Shown: in pieces, positions 18,736 through 21,715 of the stretch | Numbering within the stretch: position 1 is the first letter of the stretch | How the letters are laid out: each line of letters opens with the position of its first letter | Source of the DNA: Myroides albus | Lineage (GTDB): Bacteria > Bacteroidota > Bacteroidia > Flavobacteriales > Flavobacteriaceae | Direction of reading: 5' to 3' | DNA length: 64,000 nt | NCBI RefSeq assembly: GCF_009711045.1 | Contig: NZ_WMJX01000004.1 | Location: forward strand, 1,259 to 65,258 | Notes under the pieces: generated by a model | The model's input: only the letters and a program-made list of their open reading frames with translations | Databases searched by the model: none | What the model was told of the DNA's origin: nothing | Translations under genes and position numbers: made by a program

Positions 18736-20025
18736 TTATATATTGAATGCTTTTTTGATATCCTCAACTCTATCTAATTTTTCCCAAGTGAATAGTTCAA
18801 CTTGAATCTCTTTTACATCTCCACCTGGTCGAGTGAAAGTTTTAGTAACGACTTGTGGTTTTCTTCCCATATGTCCATAAGCAGCCGTTTCACTGTAAAT
18901 AGGGTTTCTCAGTTTTAAGCTTGTTTCGATAAAGTATGGTCTTAGGTCAAATAGTTCACTTACTTTCTTGGCAATTTCACCGTCGGTTAAGTTAACTTTA
19001 GAAGTACCATAAGTATTTACATAAACTCCAGTAGGCTTAGCTACACCGATGGCATAAGAAACTTGAACAAGTACTTCATCGGCAACACCTGCAGCAACTA
19101 AGTTTTTAGCTATATGACGTGTTGCGTATGCGGCACTTCTATCTACTTTACTTGGATCTTTTCCTGAGAATGCTCCACCACCGTGAGCTCCTTTACCGCC
19201 ATAAGTATCAACGATAATTTTTCTTCCAGTTAATCCAGTATCCCCGTGAGGTCCTCCAATAACAAAAACACCTGTAGGATTGATTAGGTATTCAATGTCG
19301 GCGTTTTCAAATAAGTATTGATATTGTGGATACTTTGCAAGTACTCTTGGAATAAGAATATCAATGATATCCTTTTCTATAATAGATTGCATTTGTTTTT
19401 CAGCGTCAGCTTTTGCAGCAGCAGACTTATCTACTGGTTTGATAAAGTCATCATGCTGAGTAGAAAGTACAATAGTGACAATGCGAACTGGTTTGTTATT
19501 ATTGTCATATTCTAAAGTCACTTGACTTTTTGCATCAGGTCTAAGATAAGTGATTTGCTTTTGCTCTCTTCTTAAACCTGCTAATTCTTGTAATAATTTG
19601 TGTGATAAGTCTAATGCAAGAGGCATATAATCTTCTGTCTCTATTGTTGCATAACCAAACATCATCCCTTGGTCCCCAGCTCCTTGATCTTCTTTTGATG
19701 CACGGTCAACTCCTTGATTAATATCTGCTGATTGTTCGTGTATTGCAGATAATATTCCACACGAGTTTGCCTCAAACATATATTCACTTTTGGTGTATCC
19801 AATACGTTGGATTACATCTCTTGCAATTTGTTGAACGTCAAGATAAGTTTTAGACTTAACTTCTCCTGCTAAAACAACTTGACCAGTAGTAACTAATGTT
19901 TCACAAGCTACTTTTGATTCAGAGTCAAAAGCTAAGAAATTGTCAATTAGAGCATCAGAAATTTGATCTGCAATTTTATCAGGATGTCCTTCACTTACAG
20001 ATTCGGATGTAAAGTAATAAGCCAT
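18736..20025 (-). CDS. metK: S-adenosylmethionine synthetase
   Basis: Cytosolic enzyme that makes SAM from methionine and ATP. At 429 aa it is longer than E. coli MetK (384), as usual in flavobacteria. Key motifs: [16 protein letters not shown] (about 14-29, the methionine/ATP site), [12 protein letters not shown] (about 115-126) and the phosphate-binding loop [19 protein letters not shown] (about 281-299). It is monocistronic with promoter, a SAM-II-type riboswitch leader and terminator all visible, so the product feeds back on its own gene. Confidence 0.97.
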
Positions 20026-20049
20026 AGTAATTATTATTTTTAAAGTTGT

Positions 20050-20139
20050 AAAAAATAGAGGAAATGGCTAAAGGGGAGATAAATACACTTCTGCTTTAGC
20101 ATTTTTTACCGAGGTTGCAATCAGTTCAAATTTTTCCTC
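20050..20139 (-). promoter_or_regulatory. SAM-II-type riboswitch in the metK leader
   Basis: Read on the minus strand, the aptamer (20139-20091) shows every SAM-II landmark in order: P1 GAGG (20139-20136) with CCTC (20114-20111); loop motif ATTTG; the P2 5' strand CTGATTGCA; linker GGTAAA; and the P2 3' segment TGCTAAAGCAG, where CTG/CAG and GCA/TGC pair as a pseudoknot. GCTAAA is the hallmark of the class. Downstream, CTTTAGC (20073-20067) and TTTCCTC (20064-20058) can pair instead with GCTAAAG and GAGGAAA of the aptamer, followed by T6 (20055-20050). It sits directly at the predicted 5' end of the metK transcript. Regulation by SAM is inferred from motif and gene. Confidence 0.85.
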
Positions 20140-20154
20140 CTGTTTATTGTGATG

Positions 20155-20186
20155 CAAATGTATTAACTATTTTAGTATCAATGCAA
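20155..20186 (-). promoter_or_regulatory. Promoter of metK
   Basis: Minus-strand TTG (20186-20184), a 21-base spacer and TACATTTG (20162-20155): a complete Bacteroidota promoter whose start point lies just upstream of the riboswitch. Confidence 0.8.
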
Positions 20187-20417: not shown

Positions 20418-21059
20418 ATGAGATTACACAATATAGAGGATCAAAAGTCTTTAACACCAGAGTTAGCATTGTCATTTCTAAAAGAAGGAAATAAACGTTT
20501 TGTTGCTAATTTAAAGGCTCATAGTAACTTATTAGAGCAAGTTAACGACACACAAGCTAATCAGTTTCCTTTTGCTATTATTTTAAGCTGTATAGACAGC
20601 AGAACTTCGGCAGAATTGATATTTGATCAAGGATTAGGTGATATATTTAGTACTCGTATTGCAGGAAATGTATTGAACAACGATATAATCGGTTCAATGG
20701 AGTTTGCTTGTAAGCTTGCAGGTTCTAAGTTAATTGTTGTATTAGGACATTCTCATTGTGGGGCAATTACTGGTGCTTGTCACGGAACAGAATTGGGGCA
20801 TTTAACTGATTTGTTAGCGAAGGTTAAACCTTCTATTGAGTATGTGAAACAAAACAATAAAGATTTAGATATTCATTCTAAGGAAGCTGTGGATAAAGTA
20901 GCTTTTCATAATGTTGAGTATACCATCGATCACATTCTCAATAAAAGTACCGTTTTAAAACAAATGTATGAACAAGGCGAGATAGGTATTGTAGGTGCGT
21001 TTTATAAGGTGGAAACTGGAGAAGTAGATTTTGTAAAGGAAATGTTTGTAAAAAAATAG
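20418..21059 (+). CDS. Beta-class carbonic anhydrase (first of two)
   Basis: A 213-aa zinc enzyme that interconverts carbon dioxide and bicarbonate. The zinc ligands and dyad are in LSCIDSRTSAELIF (the CxDxR motif, about residue 52) and GHSHCGAITGACHG (the HxxC motif, about 108-111). Other family segments are FSTRIAGNVLNND and MEFACKLAGSKLIVVLGHS. No signal peptide is obvious, so it is probably cytosolic. It is the first gene of a two-gene unit with a second, clearly different beta-carbonic anhydrase 5 bases downstream. It is divergent from metK. Confidence 0.93.
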   Translation: MRLHNIEDQKSLTPELALSFLKEGNKRFVANLKAHSNLLEQVNDTQANQFPFAIILSCIDSRTSAELIFDQGLGDIFSTRIAGNVLNNDIIGSMEFACKLAGSKLIVVLGHSHCGAITGACHGTELGHLTDLLAKVKPSIEYVKQNNKDLDIHSKEAVDKVAFHNVEYTIDHILNKSTVLKQMYEQGEIGIVGAFYKVETGEVDFVKEMFVKK

Positions 21060-21064
21060 TTGTT

Positions 21065-21715
21065 TTGAAACACAATGATTTTTATTTAAAAATACTTGAG
21101 AATAATAAAGCTTGGGTTGAGGAGAAGTTAGCTATCAACCCAAATTATTTCAAGCGTTTGTCTGAAAGACAAACACCACCTGTATTGTGGATTGGCTGTT
21201 CGGATAGCCGTGTTCCTGCAAATGAAATTATTGGTGCAGAACCTGGGGATGTGTTTGTCCATAGAAATATTGCCAATATGGTCATTCATTCAGACATGAA
21301 TATGTTGAGTGTTTTAGATTATGCTGTGAATATTCTCAAAGTGACTAATATTATAGTATGTGGACATTACGGATGTGGAGGTGTTTTAGCAGCAATGAAG
21401 AATGAATCTTATGGTTTGATAGATAACTGGATTCGCCATATAAAAACTGTTTACAGACTACACAATGTGGAACTTGATCAGATAGATGATGAAGTTGTAC
21501 GATTTAATCGCTTTGTAGAATTGAATGTTCAGGAACAAGTTTATGACTTGGCAAAGACGTCAATTGTACAAGGTGCATGGGCAAGACAACAGGATCTAAG
21601 TATACACGGATGGGTTTATGGACTCAATTCTGGATATGTGACAGATTTAGAGGTTAATGTTACCAATAATCAAGACCTTGATGAGGTTTATCAATTGCGT
21701 TTTAAAAAGATTTAA
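21065..21715 (+). CDS. can: Beta-class carbonic anhydrase (second of two)
   Basis: A 216-aa enzyme of the E. coli Can type. The motifs are WIGCSDSRVPANEI (about residue 44) and CGHYGCGGVLAAM (about 101-105), giving the usual Cys-Asp-Arg and His-Cys zinc set. The start codon appears to be TTG at 21065, since no ATG lies near the N-terminus in frame and the protein begins at the usual place (HNDFYLKILENNKAWVEEKL). It is only 5 bases behind the first carbonic anhydrase, so the two are co-transcribed. Its end overlaps the end of the convergent LETM1-related gene by 4 bases. Confidence 0.93.
   Translation: MKHNDFYLKILENNKAWVEEKLAINPNYFKRLSERQTPPVLWIGCSDSRVPANEIIGAEPGDVFVHRNIANMVIHSDMNMLSVLDYAVNILKVTNIIVCGHYGCGGVLAAMKNESYGLIDNWIRHIKTVYRLHNVELDQIDDEVVRFNRFVELNVQEQVYDLAKTSIVQGAWARQQDLSIHGWVYGLNSGYVTDLEVNVTNNQDLDEVYQLRFKKI

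Follow-up and report, generated by a model that had tools for sequence, protein, structure and literature searches.

How can a SAM-II riboswitch control translation in a phylum that does not rely on the Shine-Dalgarno (SD) sequence? The usual explanation of translational riboswitches is the hiding of the SD, and Bacteroidetes do not use it. According to the accessible text of PMC6847099, F. johnsoniae lacks SD sequences, and initiation is tuned there by structure near the start codon. The metK leader analysed here, which lies in a 64 kb stretch of DNA (the whole of it is called the window below), adds a puzzle of polarity. The initial annotation had seen that two segments downstream of the aptamer compete with it and are followed by a T run, and had remarked that, were this alternative fold a terminator, SAM would switch metK on, opposite to feedback. 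The locus suggests a compact answer to riboswitch action without an SD, i.e., clamping the start codon itself. The aptamer family (Rfam RF01726) is widespread in the order, with matches in 202 of 296 genomes.

A SAM-II aptamer upstream of metK

The SAM-II identity that had been proposed from sequence landmarks is borne out by Rfam scoring, which had been recommended. The match to RF01726 (the SAM-II long-loop model) reaches 60.9 bits against a gathering cut-off of 44, with an E-value of 3.1e-9, covers the model in full (positions 1–60), and is the sole gathering-level Rfam match across the window. The sequence and coordinates given earlier for 20050–20139 are also correct. From this match, the aptamer probably binds SAM. 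It ends 60 nt before the start codon of the gene downstream (20025), which we take to be metK from the signature at its conserved protein start; the product name also comes from the metK relatives, which are matches of the same protein in unannotated genomes. The aptamer thus stands upstream of a SAM gene. Between aptamer and start codon (20085–20026), sequence inspection finds no GG dinucleotide; with this and the 60-nt distance, occlusion of an SD does not fit the leader. Divergently from metK run two adjoining ORFs (20418–21715, forward strand), which presumably encode beta-carbonic anhydrase-like proteins, judging from the motifs CxDSR and HxxC.

For comparison, 277 sequences (276 loci and the window) were collected, of which 221 have the core pattern and metK, and 212 of these are distinct. 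The other 56 were dropped, either as the core is absent (many are metK loci without it), or as the pattern failed or metK was unreadable. The leaders were searched on both strands, and loci were fetched for part of the matches listed in the order, phylum and genus searches. The family codes used below (f1–f48) are arbitrary, and "typical Flavobacterium" denotes the 73 leaders of the rest of the window's genus, a name inferred from titled metK relatives, the best match among which is labelled Pedobacter. RF01726 occurs in 87 of 100 nearer relatives, and in 45 of 296 genomes drawn from the phylum, 44 of these being in the same class.

In 231 leaders with a readable pattern, the pairing of P1 is kept as GAGG/CCTC (170) or GTGG/CCAC (61), a result partly by construction because leader extraction required a P1 match. 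The first triple of the pseudoknot (P2) is paired by a simple pattern in 200 of 232 leaders, and several of the 32 non-matching ones are merely out of register. Since CTG/CAG is identical in 198 of these 200, this helix shows little covariation. In many Flavobacterium aptamers (L044, L046, L049, L054, L059–L086 and others), an extra 20–50 nt forming one or two hairpins lies between P1 and the AAAAAUGCUAAA segment, and the RF01726 match spans 80–109 nt.

In 206 of the 212 leaders, a promoter element of the TAnnTTTG type precedes P1 by no more than 70 nt, mostly by 12–16 nt; the consensus and spacing are those given in the accessible parts of PMC6847099 and PMC9723704. From the position of the element in the window (Table 1), the transcript would be expected to start near 20150, about 10 nt before P1.

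Table 1 Features of the metK leader in the window (minus strand), and two SAM-I/SAM-II pairs in the coordinates of their own loci
Feature	Position	Strand	Basis
Promoter -7 element TACATTTG (consensus TAnnTTTG)	20155..20162	-	sequence
SAM-II aptamer RF01726	20145..20086	-	Rfam cmscan, 60.9 bits (cut-off 44)
Aptamer P1	GAGG 20139-20136 / CCTC 20114-20111	-	cmscan match
Aptamer pseudoknot, first triple	CTG 20124-20122 / CAG 20093-20091	-	sequence
Aptamer pseudoknot, second triple	GCA 20118-20116 / TGC 20101-20099	-	sequence
Aptamer core GCTAAA	20100-20095	-	sequence
Anti-aptamer arm CTTTAGC; partner, aptamer core GCTAAAG 20100-20094	20067..20073	-	fold and clade pairing
Anti-aptamer arm TTTCCTC; partner GAGGAAA 20139-20133 (5' side of P1)	20058..20064	-	fold and clade pairing
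Clamp arm AGCCAT, overlapping both anti-aptamer arms; partner ATGGCT 20025-20020	20064..20069	-	fold, clade leaders
Clamp inner hairpin, 5' arm TATTTTT (T run of the initial annotation)	20051..20057	-	fold
Clamp inner hairpin, 3' arm AAAAATA	20035..20041	-	fold
metK start codon and codon 2, ATGGCT (clamp target)	20020..20025	-	ORF and fold
metK, S-adenosylmethionine synthetase (presumed), 429 aa	18736..20025	-	ORF
SAM-I/SAM-II pair in L018	1501-1559 and 1626-1724	- and +	
SAM-I/SAM-II pair in L026	1501-1560 and 1651-1753	- and +	

One downstream strand with two partners

As noted earlier for this leader, GCTAAAG/CTTTAGC and GAGGAAA/TTTCCTC form exact helices, one nested in the other, with TATTTTTT directly after them, and both are present in the minimum-energy fold of the free leader (-20.6 kcal/mol), where a long bulge of 34 nt on the aptamer side separates the two arms. 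Fold predictions also support the earlier statement that these arms and the SAM-bound fold exclude each other. The window by itself does not stand out in the single-duplex test: 15 of 60 dinucleotide shuffles are equally good. Among the 212 distinct metK leaders, the pairing between aptamer and downstream region beats 95% of its own dinucleotide shuffles in 148. These 148 leaders include 53 of 69 from the window's genus (a few clade members among them), 19 of 30 in f5, 16 of 19 in f7, 14 of 15 in f11, 14 of 19 in the rest of the family and 21 of 37 titled loci; in f15 the count is 0 of 5.

The arms also follow the aptamer between families. GAGG goes with CCTC and GTGG with CCAC (77:5 against 8:12), counted over leaders with exactly one of CCTC and CCAC (126 lack both motifs and 4 carry the two) and uncorrected for relatedness. 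Similarly, TTTGGC accompanies GCCAAA, or TTTGAC accompanies GTCAAA, in 24 of 26 readable leaders (101 carry the aptamer motif), again uncorrected for relatedness. When own downstream regions are compared with those of other families, 23 of 212 leaders fall in the best 5% by row and 69 by column. This swap test is weak and no proof of coevolution by itself; much of the same anti-aptamer is common to many families.

A further complementarity, between AGCCAU and AUGGCU, had been missed by the first reading of the sequence. The strand CUUUAGCCAU (20073–20064) has two possible partners: its CUUUAGC is complementary to GCUAAAG in the aptamer core, and its AGCCAU to AUGGCU at the start of metK. As AGC belongs to both CUUUAGC and AGCCAU, the two folds are mutually exclusive. 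When the aptamer is locked, the remaining leader is predicted to form one hairpin, AGCCAU/AUGGCU with UAUUUUU/AAAAAUA inside, and the predicted start-codon pairing rises from 0.14 in the free leader to 0.98. To model the locked state, all other pairs of the aptamer were forbidden and the pseudoknot and SAM energies left out; without these energies this state comes out 10.4 kcal/mol less stable than the free fold. The aptamer is transcribed before its competitor, and this order should favour it. By prediction, one fold covers the initiation region and the other frees it, which is the arrangement of a sequestor and an antisequestor.

Taken singly, the window's statistics are modest. Its ranks among 100 shuffles are 3 for start-codon pairing, 6 for the duplex and 7 for fold energy, and its mean pairing over positions -12 to +6 ranks 51 of 100. 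Actually, start-codon pairing near 0.98 is found in 2 of the 38 long ORFs of the window (metK probably among the 38), with a mean of 0.57.

What has been observed computationally is the match to the aptamer model, the two alternative sets of pairings, the fact that they exclude each other, and their retention across the clade. On this basis we propose that the leader is probably a SAM-II aptamer coupled to a translational off-switch that acts on the metK start codon. In this model, transcription would begin about 10 nt before P1. At low SAM, the strand made next, CUUUAGCCAUUUCCUC, would invade the aptamer; CUUUAGC would take the GCUAAAG core and UUUCCUC the 5' side of P1. The anti-aptamer hairpin would then hold AGCCAU, leaving the start codon free and metK on. 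With SAM present, P1 and the pseudoknot would hold the aptamer core and AGCCAU would be released to pair with AUGGCU, with UAUUUUU/AAAAAUA closed inside, so that the start codon would be buried and metK off. SAM binding in this leader, the direction of control and the blocking of ribosomes by the clamp are what the model would add to these observations. As SAM would free the clamping strand, metK would be turned off, consistent with feedback. Thus, of the ways out of the polarity puzzle that had been considered, an anti-repressor freeing the start region is favoured by AGCCAU/AUGGCU, and the terminator is disfavoured. On this view, the T run would not be the tail of a terminator; it would form the 5' side of the hairpin inside the clamp.

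Conservation of the predicted clamp and start-codon sequestors in other lineages

A search over 398 genomes of the genus brought the window's clade to 18 genomes (the window's own, L277, and 17 others, L278–L294) with 16 distinct leaders; the alignment used here (A1) holds these 16, two duplicates being left out. Identity over the query is 82–87% for the genomes above the break in that search, and 79% in L294. The same clamp fold is predicted in all 18 genomes. These are close relatives, and the shared clamp may represent a single origin. On locking the aptamer, start-codon pairing in the 16 distinct leaders rises from a mean of 0.31 to 0.98, against 0.55 to 0.59 in shuffled leaders, and 15 of 16 gain more than 0.3. 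The exception, L291, scarcely switches in the prediction (0.89 to 0.96).

In both anti-aptamer helices, 97.3% of cells are standard pairs in the 16 leaders, and this proportion falls to 46–73% if the 3' partner is slid by 1–3 columns. The CTTTAGC arm is paired at all seven positions in 16 of 16, and the TTTCCTC arm in 94.6% of cells. Covariation of these arms in relatives had been suggested as a check; the pairing is retained, but no pair of these helices has changed on both sides among the 16 leaders.

For the clamp, the outer helix AGCCAT/ATGGCT is paired at all six positions in 16 of 16 (all cells standard), while the inner helix is standard in 78% of cells. Overall, 88.3% of the clamp's cells are paired on A1, against 42–65% with the partner slid. 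Three of its pairs show double-sided changes, a number reached by 13 of 500 shuffles. The inner arms vary in step, as TATTTTT/AAAAATA, TTATTTTTT/AAAAAATAA and TTAATTTT/AAAATTAA, and A-rich sequence before the start codon is usual in the group; the evidence from this AU helix is weaker than the rest. The initial annotation had also considered that the T run might be incidental. Within the clade this is disfavoured, as all 16 distinct relatives have a predicted clamp in which the T run is paired to the A run that precedes the start codon.

More specific are the two bases that separate the anti-aptamer arms, C and A, both invariant in 16 of 16 leaders. They stay unpaired in the anti-aptamer fold, and the clamp pairs them with the start codon's G and U. 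After CTTTAG, all 16 clade leaders continue with CCAT (15) or TCAT (1), against 0 of 91 other CTTTAG leaders (6 have CATT and 1 has ACAT); the TCAT leader retains both helices through G-U pairs. In the same way, AGCCA is found in 15 of 16 clade leaders against 0 of 70 other leaders starting with ATGGCT. For other start types, exact reverse complements of codons 1–2 gave no clear pattern outside the clade.

Start-codon sequestors were assessed over all leaders by the same kind of shuffling, and the duplex is in the best 5% in 49 of 212. Outside the clade, sequestors with other sequences reach this level in f5 (20 of 30), f7 (8 of 19), f8 (5 of 5), f2 (2 of 3) and f14 (2 of 2); the window's genus contributes no more than 5 of 69. 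For instance, GGCUAUCUUC can pair with GAAGAUGGC-type starts, and UUUCUUUUGU with ACAAAAGAAA immediately 5' of the start codon. Of these 49 sequestors, 48 overlap the anti-aptamer strand, with a mean overlap of 0.64 against 0.46 expected from coverage. In the swap test, 39 of 212 sequestors are in the best 5% by row and 49 by column; the row and column counts are 13 and 21 of 30 in f5, 8 and 10 of 19 in f7, 5 and 5 of 5 in f8, 2 and 2 of 3 in f2, 2 and 1 of 2 in f14, and 3 and 3 of 69 in the genus. Start-codon pairing itself is in the top 5% against shuffles in 21 of 212 leaders, about twice chance.

The locking analysis covers 232 distinct leaders, i.e., the 212 and 20 new ones from the genus search. 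Locking raises start-codon pairing from 0.36 to 0.55 in f5 and from 0.41 to 0.73 in f7, and brings no gain in the 73 typical Flavobacterium leaders (0.47 to 0.46), whose position profile near the start, for which leaders shorter than 46 nt were left out, differs by at most +0.08. A clamp common to all Flavobacterium is rejected on these grounds. It may be that the aptamer core AUGCUAAAG acts as a decoy of AUGGCU, that CUUUAGCCAU fits both (its complementarity to the core includes one bulged base) with SAM deciding between them, and that a start-codon clamp was reached by several lineages (the window's clade, f5, f7, f8 and others) with unrelated sequences; our judgement on this wider reading is evenly divided.

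In f5, f7 and f11, the U-rich codons at +9 to +14 of metK behave oppositely to the start codon; by prediction they are paired in the SAM-free state (0.40, 0.43 and 0.61, respectively), and this pairing drops on locking (0.07, 0.07 and 0.19). Their partner is perhaps the A-run of the aptamer.

Alternative explanations and known riboswitches

The arms might only reset the aptamer and set its SAM threshold, with repression exerted otherwise, e.g., through a candidate Rho or nuclease site or ribosome standby, and with the clamp secondary or accidental. Typical Flavobacterium, which keep the arms and show no clamp, agree with this, as does the richness of the released stretch in C and U. Such a role would leave unexplained the clade-specific CAU after CTTTAG[CT] with its invariant C and A, and also the start-codon sequestors that f5, f7 and f8 have independently, and we regard it as rather improbable. 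That the complementarities are due to chance in AU-rich DNA could be argued from the window's own duplex test and the weak AU inner helix, but it is largely contradicted by the 148 of 212 leaders that outdo 95% of their shuffles, by the variation of the arms with the aptamer between families and by the retention of the clamp in 16 of 16 clade leaders, and is scarcely credible.

If the alternative fold were an intrinsic terminator, SAM would prevent it and metK would be on. The T tract directly after GAGGAAA/TTTCCTC is what such a terminator would need, and 11 of 16 clade leaders have a T run of at least 5 after the arm. However, no such run is found in the 73 typical Flavobacterium leaders, the 19 of the rest of the family or the 37 titled loci, which mostly keep the arms, and it is sparse elsewhere (f5 4/30, f7 3/19, f11 1/15, f2 1/3, f13 1/1). 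The outer helix before the U tract spans the long bulge, and activation of metK by SAM opposes feedback. A scan for intrinsic terminators with loops of 3–8 nt gave no match, and the leader has no compact G+C-rich hairpin followed by a U tract within that range. From the T-run distribution and this short-loop scan, the terminator is disfavoured as the main model and appears very unlikely. Equally doubtful is ordinary direct occlusion, by which the pseudoknot would hide the ribosome-binding site and the downstream arms would be irrelevant. SAM-II is so described in Proteobacteria in the accessible parts of PMC10907184 and PMC9373788. Against this stand the distance of the start codon, the lack of GG before it, the conservation of the downstream arms and the ribosomes of Bacteroidia, which do not recognise the SD according to the accessible parts of PMC9976891 and PMC6847099.

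The start-codon off-switch that we favour shares its sensor and its general logic with known systems. RF01726 is listed for Bacteroidetes in PMC2864571, and the window's aptamer resembles that family in aptamer, score, SAM-metabolism gene context and phylum. The main text of that paper, as far as accessible, contains no account of gene control, whereas a platform is proposed here. Proteobacterial SAM-II riboswitches (metA/metX/metZ) are alike in aptamer class, in predicted or tested off-control and in a start site few nt before P1. In them the pseudoknot hides the SD or a terminator follows (accessible parts of PMC10907184, PMC2258182, PMC1273637 and PMC9373788), while the metK leader has no SD and would carry a clamp on the start codon. 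The general scheme of sequestor/antisequestor riboswitches with off control, as outlined in the accessible part of PMC2258182, is also alike, in that the ligand removes the antisequestor and the sequestor forms; here, the antisequestor's partner would be the SAM-II core, and the sequestor would cover AUG and codon 2, not an SD. In the literature searched, with most subscription papers outside its scope, we found no account of an expression platform of SAM-II in Bacteroidetes; the accessible parts of PMC12121620 (transcriptionally active riboswitches) and PMC7366714 (B. thetaiotaomicron transcriptome) contain no SAM-II passage. The sensor and the general logic are already known, and a start-codon platform for SAM-II in an SD-less phylum was not found in the papers searched.

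The window's own genome gave no match to a SAM-I riboswitch. In 2007, according to the accessible part of PMC2258182, no species had been found with both the SAM-I and SAM-II classes. In two genomes of the order, SAM-I and SAM-II lie back to back on divergent transcripts, 66 and 90 nt apart (L018 and L026 in Table 1).
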